Shown: piece by piece, positions 29,240 to 36,414 of the stretch | How positions within the stretch are numbered: the stretch's first letter is position 1 | Layout: the number at the start of each line of letters is the position of its first letter | Source of the DNA: Burkholderiaceae bacterium | GTDB lineage: Bacteria; Pseudomonadota; Gammaproteobacteria; Burkholderiales; Burkholderiaceae_F | Length of the DNA stretch: 53,604 nt | Assembly (NCBI GenBank): GCA_017646335.1 | Contig: JAGCMT010000074.1 | Location: 1 to 53,604, forward strand | Direction: 5' to 3' | The notes under the pieces: generated by a model | What the model was told of the DNA's origin: nothing | What the model saw: the letters and a program-made list of their open reading frames with translations, nothing else | Database searches by the model: none | Translations under genes and position numbers: made by a program

Positions 29240-29520
29240 GTTTGACCTATTAATTCTGTAACTCATCCAAAACCATATATTCAGGATAGAAATCTTGCTT
29301 GTCAAGCAAAAAAACAATGAGGCGATTGCCTTTGATACCCTGAAAAATAAGCGCTCAAACAGGGATTGCTTAACATTTAAGCAAATGGGTAATCCGTGCG
29401 GATGATAGGGGTTAACATCAAAGGGAAAAACGAGTATCCTTGCGATATCAGTATGCCTTCGAGGCAGGAATATTTGCGACTTTACCAATCGTGGATTGGT
29501 TGATTACAGGATATATAAAA

Positions 29521-31386
29521 ATGGCTTTACCCTCTTTGGAAGCAACGCAAGAAAAGAATGCTGACATTTTTGCTTTGCGTGTTTTGCCTGAAGTGTTGAC
29601 TCACAACATCGGCCGCAATGATGACAAGCCCGCATTAACTCAGTGGTTCAGTGCCGAAAAGCAATGGAAGACCTTGACGTACAAGGATCTCCATGAGTAC
29701 GTCTGCCGTTGGCAACGTGCCTTTATGAAGATGGATTTGGAACGCGGTTCTCGCGTGGCCATGTTGTTGCCCAACTGCATCGACGCCGTTGCTTTTGACT
29801 TGGCCGCATTGTCTTGTGCTTTGGTCCCTGTTCCCTTGCATGCGATCGACACGCCGGGGTCTTCCGCTTTCATTTTGAATGACAGTGAAGCCCGTGTGCT
29901 TGTGACCGCAAAGTCCCTCAAATGGAAGGGTATCCGCGAAGCTGACAACCTCCCGCATTTGAAGACGGTCATCATCACCGATGATGAGTTGCCCGAAGGT
30001 GAAGTCTCTCAAAACGCCGGCATCACCGTGACGAAGTTAAATGACTGGTTGGCCGATGCCGAAGGTTTTGAATACACGCCTGCCGAACTCAATGATGAAG
30101 ATTTGGCCGCTTTGGTTTACACGTCCGGTACGACCGGTCGTCCGAAGGGTGTGATGCTCACGCACAAGAACATCATGTCCAACATGAAGGGCATTTTGAG
30201 CAACATCCAACCGACGCGCGACGAACGTTGGTTCTCTTTCTTGCCGCTCTCTCATACGTTTGAACGTACGACGACGATGTATTTGTCTTTGGCAATGAGC
30301 AATCGCGTGTATTTCAACCGCAACATCTTGCAAATCGTTGAAGACTTGAAGATTGCCAAACCGACGGTGATGATGAGCGTGCCGCGTATCTACGAACGCA
30401 TTTACGCTCGTATCCAAGAAACGTTGGCTAAGAAGCCCGCTGTTGCTCGTTACATCTTTGACTGGGCCGTTGAAAGCGGTTGGCGTCAATTCTGTAAGGC
30501 CAATAAGCTTCCGGTCGAACACACGTGGCGTGAATTCTTGGATCCGCTCATGGCCGGCTTCTTCGATAAGAAGGTCCGCTCCGTGATCCGTGACATCTTC
30601 GGTGGTGCCAAGCCCCATGCTTACATCTCCGGCGGTGCCGCTTTGAACCAAACGGTTGCCCGCTTCTTTATCGGTTTGGGTTTACCCCTTTACCAAGGCT
30701 ATGGCATGACGGAAACAAGCCCGGTGATGACGGTCAATTCCGAATTCGGTGAAAATAACCCGGCCACGGTCGGTACCAAGTTGCCGAACGTTGAATTGCG
30801 TTTGGGTGAAAACGACGAGCTCCAAGCCAAGGGCCCGACGATCATGAAGGGTTACTGGAAGCGTGAAGCCGATACGGCCGATATGTTCACGGCTGACGGT
30901 TGGTTAAAGACCGGTGACCAAGCCGAACAATTGCCGAGCGGTCACTTCAAGATCACGGGTCGAATCAAGGAAATCATCGTGACGAGCACGGGCGAAAAGA
31001 TTCCGCCGGCTGACCTTGAAATGGCGATTGAAGTCGATCCGCTTTTCTCTCAAACGATGGCGATCGGTGAAGACCTCCCCTACATCAGCGCTTTGCTCGT
31101 GTTGGAAGAAAAGGAATGGAAGAAGGTTGCCGAAGAGTTGAAGTTGGATCCGACCGATCCGGCCAGCTTGAAGACGAAGGCCGCCACGACCTACGTTCTT
31201 CGTAAGGTCAAGAAGCTCACGCGCGGCTTCCCGCAATACGGCGTTCCGCGTGCAGTGGCTTTGACCCTTGAACCGTGGACGATCGAAAACGGCATGTTGA
31301 CGCCGACCTTGAAGTTGAAGCGCCGCGTGATCCGCGCTCGTTATCAAGACGATATCAACGCCCTTTACGATGACCAACGCGCCTAA
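29521..31386 (+). CDS. Long-chain acyl-CoA synthetase-like AMP-forming ligase (copy 1)
   Basis: AMP-forming ligase that activates a carboxylic acid, probably a long-chain fatty acid, to its CoA ester. The 621-residue protein starts at the ATG at 29521 (AGGA about 10 nt upstream). It shows the P-loop-like motif YTSGTTGRPKGVMLTHKN near 200, SFLPLSHTFERT, YGMTETSP near 400, GWLKTGDQ near 460, and the late catalytic Lys region STGEKIPPADLE. Size and motifs place it in the FAA1-type group. It is a paralog of the enzyme at 38971-40794. Monocistronic with a terminator. Substrate is inferred from family only. Confidence 0.87.
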   Translation: MALPSLEATQEKNADIFALRVLPEVLTHNIGRNDDKPALTQWFSAEKQWKTLTYKDLHEYVCRWQRAFMKMDLERGSRVAMLLPNCIDAVAFDLAALSCALVPVPLHAIDTPGSSAFILNDSEARVLVTAKSLKWKGIREADNLPHLKTVIITDDELPEGEVSQNAGITVTKLNDWLADAEGFEYTPAELNDEDLAALVYTSGTTGRPKGVMLTHKNIMSNMKGILSNIQPTRDERWFSFLPLSHTFERTTTMYLSLAMSNRVYFNRNILQIVEDLKIAKPTVMMSVPRIYERIYARIQETLAKKPAVARYIFDWAVESGWRQFCKANKLPVEHTWREFLDPLMAGFFDKKVRSVIRDIFGGAKPHAYISGGAALNQTVARFFIGLGLPLYQGYGMTETSPVMTVNSEFGENNPATVGTKLPNVELRLGENDELQAKGPTIMKGYWKREADTADMFTADGWLKTGDQAEQLPSGHFKITGRIKEIIVTSTGEKIPPADLEMAIEVDPLFSQTMAIGEDLPYISALLVLEEKEWKKVAEELKLDPTDPASLKTKAATTYVLRKVKKLTRGFPQYGVPRAVALTLEPWTIENGMLTPTLKLKRRVIRARYQDDINALYDDQRA

Positions 31387-31566: not shown

Positions 31567-31596
31567 TTGACAAGGGGGGCAAACCCGCTATATATT
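31567..31596 (+). promoter_or_regulatory. Candidate sigma-70 promoter of the nrd operon
   Basis: A perfect TTGACA (31567-31572) is followed after 18 nt by TATATT (31591-31596). The -10 lies inside the first NrdR-like box, so NrdR binding would block it. Confidence 0.6.
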
Positions 31597-31631: not shown

Positions 31632-31679
31632 GAGCAGTTGTTCTAGGCTCACATATACCCCAACCTATTGGACCCAACC

Positions 31680-33965
31680 ATGATTCATAGCGTAACCAAG
31701 CGCGACGGTCGTGTCGTGCTTTTTGACCAAAACAAGATTGCCTCTGCAATCCTCCGTGCATTGGAAGCCTCTGCCGACGGTAATGCTGCCGATGCCGCTT
31801 GTGTTGCCAATGACGTGCAACGTGATTTGGAAGCTCGCTTTGCCGGTGGCGCCGCCCCGAACATTGAAGCGATCCAAGACGCTGTTGAACAACAGTTGAT
31901 GAACCACGGTTTCAACCGTGCTGCTAAGGCTTACATTCTTTACCGCGCTAACCGCACGCGCGCTCGCGAAGCCAGCACTTCTTTGATGAAGACCATCGAC
32001 GAAATCACCAATATCGATGCTCGTCAAAGCGACATGAAGCGTGACAATGCCAACATCGACGGCAATACCGCCATGGGTAGCATGTTGCAAATCGGTTCTG
32101 CCGGCGCTAAGTCCTATAATGAGTTGTACTTGTTGCGCCCGGAACACGCCCAGGCTTACCGTGAAGGCGACATCCACATTCACGATTTCGACTTCTATTC
32201 TTTGACGACGACGTGTTGCCAAATCGACATCCAACGCTTGTTTGCCGGTGGTTTCTCCACGGGTCACGGCTATTTGCGTGAACCCAACAGCATTCAAAGC
32301 TATGCTGCATTGGCTGCCATTGCGATCCAAGCCAACCAAAATGACCAACACGGCGGTCAATCCATCCCGAACTTCGACTACGGTATGGCCGACGGTATCC
32401 GTAAGTCTTACCGCAAGGCTTTCACGCGTCGTTTGAAGGAAACGTTGGAAGACCAATTGGAAATGCAAGAAGAGTTGCTCAATGCAACGACACTCGTTGA
32501 AACGGCTGAAGCCGCATCGGGTGAAAAGGTCCAGTTGGAAAATTCCGAATGCTTCAACAACGCCTTGGTTGACGCAATCGTTGCCGCTCATTGCTTGCCC
32601 GTCGAACAAGTTCAAAAGTTGATCGCTCGCGTTCAACTTCGTGCAACGCAACAAGTCGAACGTGACACGTTCCAAGCCATGGAAGGCTTCGTACACAACT
32701 TGAACACCATGCACTCCCGTGCCGGTGCTCAAACGCCGTTCTCTTCCATCAACTACGGTACCGATACGACGCCTGAAGGCCGTATGGTCATCCGTAACGT
32801 GTTGCTTGCCTTGGAAGCCGGTCTCGGTCATGGTGAAACCTGCATCTTCCCGATTCACATCTTCAAGGTCAAGGAAGGCGTTAACTACAACGAAGGTGAC
32901 CCCAACTACGACTTGTTCCGCATGAGCATGAAGGTCAGCGCCAAGCGTCTCTTCCCGAACTACGTGTTCTTGGATGCTCCGTTTAACCTCCAATACTATG
33001 TGCCGGGTCGTCCGGAAACGGAAGTCGCTACGATGGGTTGCCGTACGCGTGTGATCGGTAATGTTTATGATCCGACGCGCCAAATCGCTTACTCTCGCGG
33101 TAACTTGTCCTTTACGTCCATCAATTTGCCGCGTTTGGCATTGGAAAGTAAGGGCGACGAAAAGGTCTTCTTCGAAAAGCTTGAAGCCATGATGGACTTG
33201 GTGAGCCAACAATTGTTGGACCGCTTCGAAATTCAAGCCAGCAAGCACAACTACAACTACCCGTTCTTGATGGGTCAAGGCGTATGGTTGGACTCTGAAA
33301 AGTTGACCTACAGTGAAGATCTCCGTGAAGTGCTCAAGCACGGCACGCTCTCGATCGGCTTTATCGGTTTGGCAGAAACGTTGACGGTTCTCTATGGTGA
33401 ACATCACGGCCAAAGCGAAGCCATGCAAGAAAAGGGCTTGAAGATCATCGGCTTCATGCGTGACTACTGTGACGCCAAGTGCGAAGCGTTGAAGATGAAC
33501 TTCTCGTTGCTTGCCACGCCGGCCGAAGGCCTCTCCGGTCGCTTCATCCGTATGGACCAAAAGCGCTACGGCAAGATCAAGAACGTGACGGATCGTGAGT
33601 ACTACACGAACTCCTTCCATGTTCCGGTTTGGCACGAAATCTCCATCGTGGACAAGATCCGCACGGAAGCTCCGTACCACGCTCTCTGTAATGCCGGCCA
33701 CATCAGCTACGTTGAATTGGACGGTGACACCGCCATGAACGTGGAAGCTTTCGAGGCAGTCGTTCGTTGCATGCACGACAACCATATCGGTTACGGTAGC
33801 ATCAACCACCCGGTTGACCGTGACCCGATTTGCGGCTACGTCGGCATCATTGGCGATACGTGCCCGCGTTGCGGTCGTCGTGAAGGCGAAACGATTCCGC
33901 AAGAAAAGCTTGAGGATTTGAAGCGTATGTTCCCCGAAATGCCTGCATTCCGAGGCCTTGAATAA
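31680..33965 (+). CDS. nrdD: Anaerobic ribonucleoside-triphosphate reductase, catalytic part without glycyl-radical motif
   Basis: Large subunit of class III ribonucleotide reductase, which makes deoxynucleotides without oxygen. The 761-residue frame (ATG at 31680) begins with an ATP-cone (VTKRDGRVVLFDQNKIASAI) for allosteric control. The barrel follows with HIHDFDFYSLTTTCCQIDI and NLSFTSINLPRLAL. It ends with a Cys4 zinc site (PICGYVGIIGDTCPRCGRRE) and a 26-residue tail. Standard NrdD continues from this zinc site into a C-terminal RxxGYL glycyl-radical loop; here the frame stops first. The missing motif is encoded by the next gene. Reading through the TAA meets a TGA within four codons, so a simple stop error does not explain it. 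The operon continues to nrdG. Confidence 0.93.
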   Translation: MIHSVTKRDGRVVLFDQNKIASAILRALEASADGNAADAACVANDVQRDLEARFAGGAAPNIEAIQDAVEQQLMNHGFNRAAKAYILYRANRTRAREASTSLMKTIDEITNIDARQSDMKRDNANIDGNTAMGSMLQIGSAGAKSYNELYLLRPEHAQAYREGDIHIHDFDFYSLTTTCCQIDIQRLFAGGFSTGHGYLREPNSIQSYAALAAIAIQANQNDQHGGQSIPNFDYGMADGIRKSYRKAFTRRLKETLEDQLEMQEELLNATTLVETAEAASGEKVQLENSECFNNALVDAIVAAHCLPVEQVQKLIARVQLRATQQVERDTFQAMEGFVHNLNTMHSRAGAQTPFSSINYGTDTTPEGRMVIRNVLLALEAGLGHGETCIFPIHIFKVKEGVNYNEGDPNYDLFRMSMKVSAKRLFPNYVFLDAPFNLQYYVPGRPETEVATMGCRTRVIGNVYDPTRQIAYSRGNLSFTSINLPRLALESKGDEKVFFEKLEAMMDLVSQQLLDRFEIQASKHNYNYPFLMGQGVWLDSEKLTYSEDLREVLKHGTLSIGFIGLAETLTVLYGEHHGQSEAMQEKGLKIIGFMRDYCDAKCEALKMNFSLLATPAEGLSGRFIRMDQKRYGKIKNVTDREYYTNSFHVPVWHEISIVDKIRTEAPYHALCNAGHISYVELDGDTAMNVEAFEAVVRCMHDNHIGYGSINHPVDRDPICGYVGIIGDTCPRCGRREGETIPQEKLEDLKRMFPEMPAFRGLE

Positions 33966-33976
33966 GGAGAAGGCTG

Positions 33977-34138
33977 ATGACAGTGAAAACCGTCAATGAA
34001 AAGTTGGGCCAAGGCGTTAGCTTTGAACGTATCCGTCGCATCACCGGCTACTTGGTCGGTACGATGGACAAGTGGAATAACGCCAAGCGCGCTGAAGAGC
34101 GCGATCGTGTCAAGCACGGAGCCATGAAGCGTGATTGA
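33977..34138 (+). CDS. Free-standing glycyl-radical domain of class III ribonucleotide reductase
   Basis: A 53-codon gene between nrdD and nrdG. Its product runs [12 protein letters not shown], then [16 protein letters not shown] (about residues 14-29), then [18 protein letters not shown]. This is the C-terminal glycyl-radical segment of NrdD, with Gly24 as the expected radical site. It has a perfect Shine-Dalgarno (AAGGAG, 33964-33969) 7 nt before its ATG, lies 11 nt after the nrdD stop, is in a different frame, and overlaps the nrdG GTG by 8 nt. It should be activated by NrdG and dock into NrdD, as GrcA/YfiD does with pyruvate formate-lyase. Its first 13 residues have no counterpart in fused NrdD and may be a docking arm. 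Confidence 0.88.
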
Positions 34139-34714: not shown

Positions 34715-34762
34715 AAAAAAGTGAGCCGAAGAATTTTCATTCTTCGGCTCAAGCTTTTTTCT
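34715..34762. terminator. Second, bidirectional hairpin terminator
   Basis: Stem GAGCCGAAGAA / TTCTTCGGCTC (34723-34733 with 34740-34750). The minus strand continues ACTTTTTTT and the plus strand AAGCTTTTTT, so it can end the DASS gene and back up the nrd terminator. Confidence 0.8.
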
Positions 34763-34887: not shown

Positions 34888-36414
34888 TTAGAAGAAACCC
34901 GGGCAAACGCCCAACCAGCTGAAGTACGTACCGACGCAGACCATCAACATAGCCCAGTAGAGGACAGACATCGTGAGACCGTACTTGAAGGATTCACCCA
35001 TCGTGTACTTGTTCGTACCGTAGAGCATTGCGTTCGGCTTAGCGTTAAACGGCAAGGACCAGCAGCAGTTGATACACAAGAGGATCGGCAAGCCCAAGGT
35101 CATAACGTCCATCTTCAACGTTTGTGCCACACCGATAACGATCGGCATGAAGATCAACGTACGCATGTTCTTGGATTGGAAGATGAAGTGGCTAGCAATG
35201 AAGATAGCCGTCAAGGTACCGACCAACGTCATGTAAGACATCGTGTGCATACCGAGAGCGTCCATCAAGTGCGTCGTCAAAACGTTCATCAACTTCGTAG
35301 CATTCAAGCCACCGCCCAAAGCGTAAGCACCAGCAGAGAACAACATGAGGTGCCACGGCACGTCGACGTCGTTCCAGTTAAGGAGCTTGAATTGCGGCAA
35401 GAGCATCACGATAGCGCCCAACATAGCGACGACCGTGGAGTTCAAACCGTGGAGCTTGTCCGTTGCCCAAACAGCCAACACGATCAAGAAGACGATAGCA
35501 GCCTTGACTTCGTTCAACTTGATAGCGCCGAGTTCGTTGTAAGCACGAACCAAAGCTTCGCGACCACCTTCCAACTTCGGTTGCTTGTCTTCTTCCGTCA
35601 AACGGAAAACGAACTTAACACCGATCACATAGGAGAGGATACCGAAGCCCAAAACGAGCGGGAAACCAGCCATGAACCAGTCGAAGTAGTAGACCGTAGC
35701 GCCAGCACCAGCCAAGATTGCAGCACCCAAGAGGTTAGCACCGGAACCCGTCATGAACGTGTTGCAGGATGCGTTAATCATCAAGAGGTTGTGCAAAACG
35801 AGGTTACGAGCGAAGTTGTTCGTCGTGTCCGTACCCGGAGCGCCATACACAGCGGAAACCACCATGAAGAGCGGCATCATCAAAGCGGCCTTAGCAGCCG
35901 TGGCGTTCACGAAAGCGGCCAAGATGATGTTGATGGCCAAGAACGTCAAGAAGATGGAACCGGCGTTACGACCGAACTTAATGATCAAGGCCAAAGCAAC
36001 GCGCTTAACCAAGTCCGTCTTCACCATAGCAGAAGCCATAATAAAGGCAGAGACGTTCAACCAAATCGTCGGGTCACCCAAGTTAGCCATGGCAGCCTTA
36101 GCCTTCAACGTACCCGTCAAGATCAAGCCGCAGATGAGCAACATGGAGGTCACATAGTTGGGAACCGTTTCAGAGATCCACAAGAACAAAGCCGTAGCGA
36201 ACAAAGCGAACATCACTTGTTGCTTAGCGTTGAGGATCGGGAATTGGAAAACGTAACCGAGGAGAACGAAGAGGATTGCAGCGATCGGCAAACCCCAAAC
36301 TTGGAAGAACTGGCTGACCTTCGTCGGGGGACGCTTCGGCAACTTGTTCAAAGAGTAGCTGTTCATATCCAACGGATCAAAATGATCCTGAGCAGCCTTC
36401 GTATTGGTAGTCAT
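34888..36414 (-). CDS. DASS/SLC13-family sodium:dicarboxylate (or anion) symporter
   Basis: A 508-residue inner-membrane transporter of the divalent anion:sodium symporter family, which takes up dicarboxylates, citrate or sulfate. A 35-residue polar N-terminus is followed by about twelve hydrophobic segments. The paired family motifs appear as LLMINASCNTFMTGSGANLL and, later, ILLCINCCWSLPFNAKPNAM, with the SNT/SNA-like sites altered to SCNT and NAKPN. Codon choice is strongly biased as in ribosomal protein genes, which hints at high expression. Upstream are two CYTH-type genes in the same direction, separated by a long hairpin. Substrate is unproven; a C4-dicarboxylate fits the window. Confidence 0.82.
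   Translation of the reverse strand: MTTNTKAAQDHFDPLDMNSYSLNKLPKRPPTKVSQFFQVWGLPIAAILFVLLGYVFQFPILNAKQQVMFALFATALFLWISETVPNYVTSMLLICGLILTGTLKAKAAMANLGDPTIWLNVSAFIMASAMVKTDLVKRVALALIIKFGRNAGSIFLTFLAINIILAAFVNATAAKAALMMPLFMVVSAVYGAPGTDTTNNFARNLVLHNLLMINASCNTFMTGSGANLLGAAILAGAGATVYYFDWFMAGFPLVLGFGILSYVIGVKFVFRLTEEDKQPKLEGGREALVRAYNELGAIKLNEVKAAIVFLIVLAVWATDKLHGLNSTVVAMLGAIVMLLPQFKLLNWNDVDVPWHLMLFSAGAYALGGGLNATKLMNVLTTHLMDALGMHTMSYMTLVGTLTAIFIASHFIFQSKNMRTLIFMPIVIGVAQTLKMDVMTLGLPILLCINCCWSLPFNAKPNAMLYGTNKYTMGESFKYGLTMSVLYWAMLMVCVGTYFSWLGVCPGFF

Follow-up and report, generated by a model that had tools for sequence, protein, structure and literature searches.

The window analysed here, a 53,604-nt stretch of contig JAGCMT010000074.1 from a Burkholderiaceae bacterium (assembly GCA_017646335.1; genome G000 below), contains what reads from its open reading frames (ORFs) as a three-gene operon: nrdD, a 53-codon ORF, and nrdG. 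We think it very likely that this operon encodes a real, working class III (anaerobic) ribonucleotide reductase made of two subunits, with the glycyl-radical segment on a chain of its own. The nrdD frame runs from ATG 31680 to the stop codon TAA at 33963–33965. After 11 nt the small ORF begins at ATG 33977 in a frame different from that of nrdD, and nrdG, with a GTG start at 34131, overlaps the small ORF by 8 nt. The AAGGAG of the small gene starts within the nrdD stop codon and leaves 7 nt before ATG 33977, and because the stop codon and the Shine-Dalgarno site overlap, translational coupling of nrdD and the small gene is suggested. The original prediction, made from the letters alone, had described an nrdD without a glycyl-radical motif and a separate 53-codon gene holding that motif, and this is confirmed by the coordinates and by the NRDD matches given below; the sequence likewise bears out the 11-nt gap, the change of frame, the AAGGAG, and the overlap with nrdG.

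Division of the glycyl-radical domain between two chains

Pfam NRDD (PF13597) matches NrdD over profile positions 1–531 of 562 with 605 bits and the small ORF over positions 533–562 with 34.6 bits (cut-off 26.2). Since the profile is divided in this way, NrdD appears to be cut inside its glycyl-radical domain, so that the predicted metal-site half is on the large chain and the predicted radical loop on the small one. NrdD also matches PRK07111 with 1050.7 bits (cut-off 764), which identifies a class III catalytic domain, and the small ORF matches PRK14704 over positions 585–617 with 56.2 bits, far under the whole-protein cut-off of that model. Two further marks of class III are an adjacent NrdG radical-SAM activase, which is present, and a C-terminal glycyl-radical motif on the catalytic chain, which is here found only in the 53-residue ORF.

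The motifs of the two chains are listed in Table 1. A finger-loop cysteine is present as C454 of NrdD; it is invariant in 23 of 23 aligned rows and, by analogy with known enzymes, is likely the thiyl-radical cysteine. The N-A-N at residues 123–125 resembles the NxN flap described for P. copri NrdD (PMC11226230). The original prediction had a Cys4 zinc site at the end of NrdD, and this has to be corrected: the predicted metal site consists of three Cys and Asp715, and Asp likewise occupies this position in fused relatives among the 80 genome loci kept from the scan described below. The small protein aligns with residues 707–738 of the solved P. copri NrdD (8p23), the stretch that holds its radical glycine, Gly711 (PMC11226230), and this alignment places the predicted radical glycine of the small chain at Gly24.

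Table 1. Positions in the window of the nrdD operon, its signals, and the motifs of its products
Feature	Position	Strand	Basis
Promoter-like site TTGACA-18-TATATT, upstream of nrdD	31567..31596	+	11/12 consensus positions
Alternative in-frame nrdD start, TTG	31668	+	
nrdD, 761 aa, catalytic subunit without glycyl-radical segment	31680..33965	+	NRDD and PRK07111 profile matches
ATP-cone domain, residues 4–93	31689..31958	+	PF03477, 75.5 bits, cut-off 25.8
N-A-N, residues 123–125	32046..32054	+	resembles P. copri NrdD NxN flap
C454 in MGCRTR, finger loop	33039..33041	+	motif position
Metal-site motif D715-x2-C718 ... C728-x2-C731	33822..33872	+	sequence
29-residue NrdD C-terminal tail, candidate docking extension	33876..33962	+	tail comparison
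Shine-Dalgarno AAGGAG of the small gene	33964..33969	+	sequence
Free-standing glycyl-radical gene, 53 aa	33977..34138	+	NRDD 533–562; separate in 73/80 kept genome loci
Gly24 in RITGYLVGT, predicted radical glycine	34046..34048	+	aligned with 8p23 radical loop
nrdG, radical-SAM activase, 170 aa	34131..34643	+	TIGR02491, 141.8 bits, cut-off 126.1
13-bp hairpin with T-run on both strands	34722..34751	.	terminator-like

Conservation of the split among relatives

The original prediction named three things that would point the other way: an extra base between 33962 and 33965, fused relatives at the same locus, and a second complete nrdD. None of the three was borne out. The closest relative, G007, keeps the break between nrdD and the radical segment; within the genus this NrdD lineage was found in G000 and G007 alone, and so the locus is split in both; and a search for another complete nrdD in the window genome, a metagenome-assembled genome (MAG) that is 82.8% complete, found none. 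Of the 762 codons compared in NrdD between G000 and G007, 128 differ synonymously and 25 non-synonymously; for the 52 codons of the small ORF the corresponding numbers are 8 and 4.

We scanned named genomes with three radical proteins as query. Of the best 80 of 493 relatives, 73 have a separate radical segment and 7 a fused one; these 80 were kept, like the viral sets below (80 of 104 and 80 of 128), by similarity to the free-standing proteins, a choice that favours separate copies. All seven fused loci are placed in Christensenellaceae, and NrdD was not seen beside the separate ORF in 5 of the 73 split loci. The split is thus far from unique to the window genome, and it is this apparent commonness, more than its presence in the window genome, that is the surprise.

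The NrdD that precedes a separate radical gene ends in an additional tail. Read after the metal site for loci L075–L135, the tail is exactly 29 residues long in 59 of 60 near loci, with the consensus RrEGE.i..er..EL...YPemPaFqGie, and the window tail fits the conserved EL...YPEMPAFQGIE-like end. Fused relatives are without this 29-residue tail, and only ~9 residues lie between metal site and radical loop in them; more distant split loci (L138, L140, L149, L154) have tails of other lengths. Compared with fused tails, the ~26 residues originally thought to be added to NrdD and the ~13 added to the small protein are about right, and the idea that the NrdD tail is a candidate docking extension is backed by its constant length in the near loci.

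A second split NrdD lineage in the family

NRDD matches occur in 43 of the 67 genomes of the window's family, and 37 of those 43 contain another NrdD type with the C-terminal part CPKHGY...CPxC. Most relatives at the family loci belong to this second lineage, which has a different motif, EVWTRVMGYHRP. Excluded from this count are full-length matches of ~345–377 bits (query ~1–560, one open frame), which represent a further, fused NrdD lineage, and with them G019, which has no match of any other kind; partial matches at contig ends (G011, G013) were counted neither as split nor as non-adjacent. Full-length NrdDs are also present in many second-lineage genomes.

The radical segment of the second lineage is in the same uninterrupted frame in 0 of 37 genomes. 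It lies within 400 nt of nrdD in 34 of them (in G003 the two share a frame that a TAA interrupts), and the remaining three (G033, G043, G046) have a radical gene only elsewhere. In the window's own family this lineage is thus split in 37/37 genomes carrying its C-terminus. In G043, nrdG directly follows nrdD and the only free radical gene is on the same contig ~1.3 Mb off (L043/L030); because of this distance, the radical in G043 must act in trans, provided that the split enzyme works.

The same architecture is seen beyond these genomes. On the megaplasmid of C. necator H16 a 676-aa NrdD without the motif is followed, after a gap of 142 nt, by a 66-aa radical protein, and Bradyrhizobium has the same split architecture. 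Work cited in PMC2864759 is reported to show that C. necator needs nrdDG to denitrify completely, and that paper lists the CH34 nrdDG as Rmet_5137 and Rmet_5139, skipping the intermediate gene, which we infer to be the radical gene. The original prediction knew of no described split of this kind. That agrees with the literature searched, from which most subscription journals were absent and in which no description of such a split class III reductase was found; however, the small ORF itself is already in public annotation, as 'nrdD', in C. necator and Bradyrhizobium.

Additional radical genes in chromosomes

A second radical gene of G000 lies on a different contig (C90:224-385, L002/L034, minus strand). 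It has 53 codons, a GTG start, and its own Shine-Dalgarno sequence, and it is monocistronic, with a 14-bp hairpin terminator (z-score −4.6) directly 3′. A response-regulator gene on the opposite strand starts ~800 nt from it.

In the genus, 7/7 second-lineage genomes carry, on a different contig, an additional radical gene of the type that they already have, and the type of the extra copy is that of the resident split NrdD in 8/8 genomes having one; no extra copy was found in G007. The extra copy adjoins an ORF that resembles adenine phosphoribosyltransferase by eye in G001, G003, G005, G006, and G008. In the family, an adjacent and a further second-lineage copy occur together in 11 genomes, and some extra copies are near phage genes, namely a phage lysozyme (G063, G064) or an integrase (G056). 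Among the scan genomes, an extra copy is present in 2/50 of one set and in 9/20 of another, for which 20 of the 30 remaining loci were taken; one genome, G401, is common to both. Extra copies in G436 and G443 lie near Mu GemA or a phage integrase. The extra radical ORF of G401 (L247 1-871) sits where its contig begins, and the ORF after it looks like nrdG by eye; it is perhaps part of another split operon that the contig end truncates.

Radical genes on viral contigs

The viral loci are IMG/VR contigs (L155–L234 for the window type, type A; L268–L347 for the second type), and their viral origin is taken from the database. Relatives of the window type occur on 104 viral contigs, and of the best 80 of these 104, which were kept, 61 have no NrdD core in a stretch of up to 4 kb on each side; the same core search finds the NrdD core in 8/8 control loci. 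The motif could be read by script in 58 of the 61 loci (51 distinct sequences), and at least 2.5 kb are available on both sides in 37 of those 58. In 20/20 whole records chosen from the 61, which may be fragments, the radical segment is the only NRDD match, and it exceeds the family cut-off in 17. Of these 61 type A loci without NrdD, 60 have glycine at the radical position, and RRITGYLVG is read in the last, L164.

For the second type there are 128 viral relatives, and in the best 80 of these 128 the core is absent in 80/80 from the flanking stretches, which are what this search covered. These 80 loci hold 64 distinct sequences, with at least 2.5 kb on both sides in 41. Read by eye, L160 has its radical ORF among phage-like ORFs. 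In L199 (~1846–1974) the viral radical ORF has an in-frame stop in the motif region, from decay or sequencing error. Eggerthella phage EL753P1 (L235) has an annotated nrdD without the motif; an unannotated stretch downstream of it matched the radical protein of the window, and this phage is not counted as evidence.

A radical gene beside flavodiiron genes in Christensenellales

A free-standing radical protein of ~88 residues, with an added N-terminal part, is present in 20 of 59 genomes, comprising the Christensenellales genome G438 and its relatives, and 18 of those 20 also have a fused NrdD with its radical segment in a long open frame. The radical gene is directly before a flavodiiron gene in 11 of the 20 loci (L248–L258), and a divergent gene for a Crp/Fnr-type regulator is beside it in 16 of 20. 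The same search of the other 104 orphan or viral loci gave a flavodiiron-like match in one (L245, 28% identity) and a Crp/Fnr-type regulator in none; the orphan copy of G000 was found to have neither neighbour. This association, of a lone radical domain with an oxygen-reducing enzyme in genomes whose NrdD is complete, looks as one would expect of a repair part.

Origin of the split nrdD and reductase content

NrdD ORFs were sought in 160 loci; 90 were found, 4 short ones were dropped, and none was found in 8/80 genome loci. In a tree of 87 NrdD cores, made by a quick method and having several long branches, the window and G007 copies fall within a 58-row clade that is split throughout and whose other rows are Bacillota, with two viral contigs among them. 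The smallest well-supported sets that contain both (2, 3, and 4 rows) have SH-aLRT values of 100, 95, and 97 and add one Lachnospiraceae and one Oscillospiraceae row. Because the window copy nests among Bacillota in an all-split clade, nrdD was probably acquired from a gut Bacillota donor when it was already split. The split or fused label requires 5 changes on the tree, and at least 3 of these changes are forced by well-supported branches.

PF02867, the large subunit of class I and II reductases, is present in 1 of 9 genus genomes (G005) and was not found in G000 (82.8% complete) or in G007 (93%). The only NRDD matches in these two genomes are the split pair and, in G000, the extra radical gene. 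Since no class I or II reductase was found in either genome, the split enzyme may be their sole reductase and possibly essential.

Signals and neighbours of the operon

Promoter-like sites in the region, recognized by consensus match only, number 4 versus 2.4 expected. Terminator-like sites number 7 versus 5.0 expected, and so the hairpin downstream of nrdG says little by itself; it is likely the operon end. A 745-codon open frame runs antisense to nrdD (window 31665–33902, minus strand) and is most likely a by-product of codon usage. Judged by eye, the upstream neighbour (29440–31386) is an acyl-CoA ligase and the downstream neighbour (34888–36414, opposite strand) an anion transporter.

Discussion

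Established by these comparisons are the separate genes, their conservation, the second copy, and the absence of an adjacent radical gene from 3/37 second-lineage genomes. In the working enzyme that we propose, NrdD would contribute three parts, namely the ATP cone, the cysteine-bearing catalytic barrel, and the metal site, and the 53-residue protein would supply the radical-loop half of the glycyl-radical domain. The small protein would dock on NrdD, probably helped by the NrdD tail, and NrdG would install the radical on Gly24 of the small chain, from which it would move on to the cysteine of NrdD, the route taken in fused enzymes. Since it is the radical domain itself that is divided, cleavage by oxygen at the glycine would destroy just the 53-residue chain, and the cleaved chain could then be replaced by a new copy made from the operon or from the second copy in the genome.

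Several observations weigh against this proposal. The 8:4 ratio of synonymous to non-synonymous changes in the small ORF rests on 12 codons. The 80-locus scan was built from split small proteins and is thus biased to separate copies, so its counts are not population frequencies. G000 is 82.8% complete, so that a second reductase could have been missed, and the PF02867 search did raise one candidate in G000, which did not score. G043, where the radical gene is farthest from nrdD, also holds a full-length NrdD of another lineage, and its split enzyme is not its sole reductase.

That the separate chain is an exchangeable spare part against oxygen, as the original prediction proposed by analogy with GrcA/YfiD, is plausible; the extra copies lend the idea indirect support, and the free-standing radical tips in many gut bacteria and phages suggest a replaceable part. 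The broader proposal is that radical proteins form a widespread, exchangeable, and mobile spare part that takes in the two split lineages, the chromosomal extras, the phages, and, in Christensenellales, the rescue of oxygen-cleaved NrdD, with the window operon as the split-enzyme end of that system; to this we give about an even chance. Against its generality, the flavodiiron neighbour is seen in only 1/104 of the other loci. The same count favours an alternative in which the enzyme works but its separate chain arose by neutral gene fission, and in which no exchange takes place and the extra and viral copies have some other role, for example in regulation or in interfering with the enzyme of the host. 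The lack of an extra copy in 48/50 scan genomes also fits this alternative, which is a serious contender, though we rate it at somewhat under an even chance. It accounts less well for the glycine kept at the radical position in 60/61 viral type A loci (with RRITGYLVG in L164), for the 8/8 agreement in type between extra copy and resident split NrdD in the genus, and for the 11/20 Christensenellales loci in which the radical gene directly precedes the flavodiiron gene.

The other explanations deny that there are two working chains. If the genes were a degrading pseudogene pair in a cell served by another reductase, the second enzyme could be hidden in an incomplete MAG, and many relatives do have two NrdD lineages; but NrdD changes mostly synonymously between G000 and G007, the catalytic motifs are intact, no other reductase was found in either genome, and the split is deeply conserved, which leaves this very improbable. 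We think it equally improbable that both ORFs are translated into one polypeptide, whether through a programmed frameshift or through read-through of the stop. In 16/80 loci nrdD and the small ORF do share a frame, separated by just one stop, and GGAGG comes directly after the stop in 12 of these 16, but a stop followed by GGAGG is explained as a Shine-Dalgarno site. Among the kept genome loci all three frame offsets (0, 1, and 2) occur, and the two ORFs lie from a few to hundreds of nt apart; because frames and gaps vary in this way, neither process can be the general rule. Moreover, G033, G043, and G046 have no adjacent radical gene, and most kept viral copies are without NrdD beside them. 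Least probable of all is an assembly or sequencing error in a gene that is truly fused: adding a single base between 33962 and 33965 would bring the two ORFs of the window into one frame, but G007 has the same break, so a single extra or missing base is not the cause, other relatives are split at the same site with different frames and gaps, and fused relatives are without the 29-residue tail, from all of which we conclude that the break is not an assembly error.

With a two-subunit reductase of this kind, a seemingly truncated NrdD could in fact be whole, only divided over two chains. Such an enzyme would also allow radical transfer between chains that are not covalently joined to be studied in a natural setting. 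A further implication is that many phages may encode a small protein able to slot into the DNA-precursor enzyme of their host.

Comparison with known systems

Phage nrdD and nrdA genes are known to be broken by introns, inteins, and homing endonucleases, with the coding sequence in pieces and at least one of these broken genes functional (PMC3653736). These breaks are mostly attributed to mobile elements, and no separate radical subunit is described in the part of that account available to us. A reductase of two chains is also known in class II, as NrdJa/NrdJb of Pseudomonas aeruginosa (PMC4520616), though its class and chemistry are different.

Fused NrdD (P. copri 8p23; T4 1h78) has in common with the window enzyme the catalytic domain, the radical cysteine, the NxN motif, RITGYLVGT, and NrdG, and the P. 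copri enzyme also has the ATP cone. The window enzyme differs in that its radical loop is on a separate 53-residue protein, its NrdD has an extra tail, and an Asp takes the place of one Cys. In class III reductases as treated in the literature available to us, the radical glycine is on the catalytic chain; in the window it is on a tiny separate protein that can be duplicated, seemingly in the only reductase of the cell.

The closest parallels in function are YfiD/GrcA of E. coli and Y06I of phage T4, which are likewise small free-standing glycyl-radical proteins and serve as spare parts for pyruvate formate-lyase. Like that of GrcA/YfiD, the gene here is separate from the enzyme gene, adjacent in the window and, for the second copy in G000, on another contig. 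Unlike YfiD/GrcA, the small protein belongs to the NRDD family, with no match to the GrcA/YfiD domain PF01228 (Gly_radical) in it or in G000, and it would be the partner of a split enzyme and not a repair copy of a fused one. YfiD and Y06I are given as the only validated spare parts in PMC8683613, where parts for other such enzymes are considered possible, and the split reductase provides a ready test of whether spare parts exist for glycyl-radical enzymes beyond pyruvate formate-lyase.

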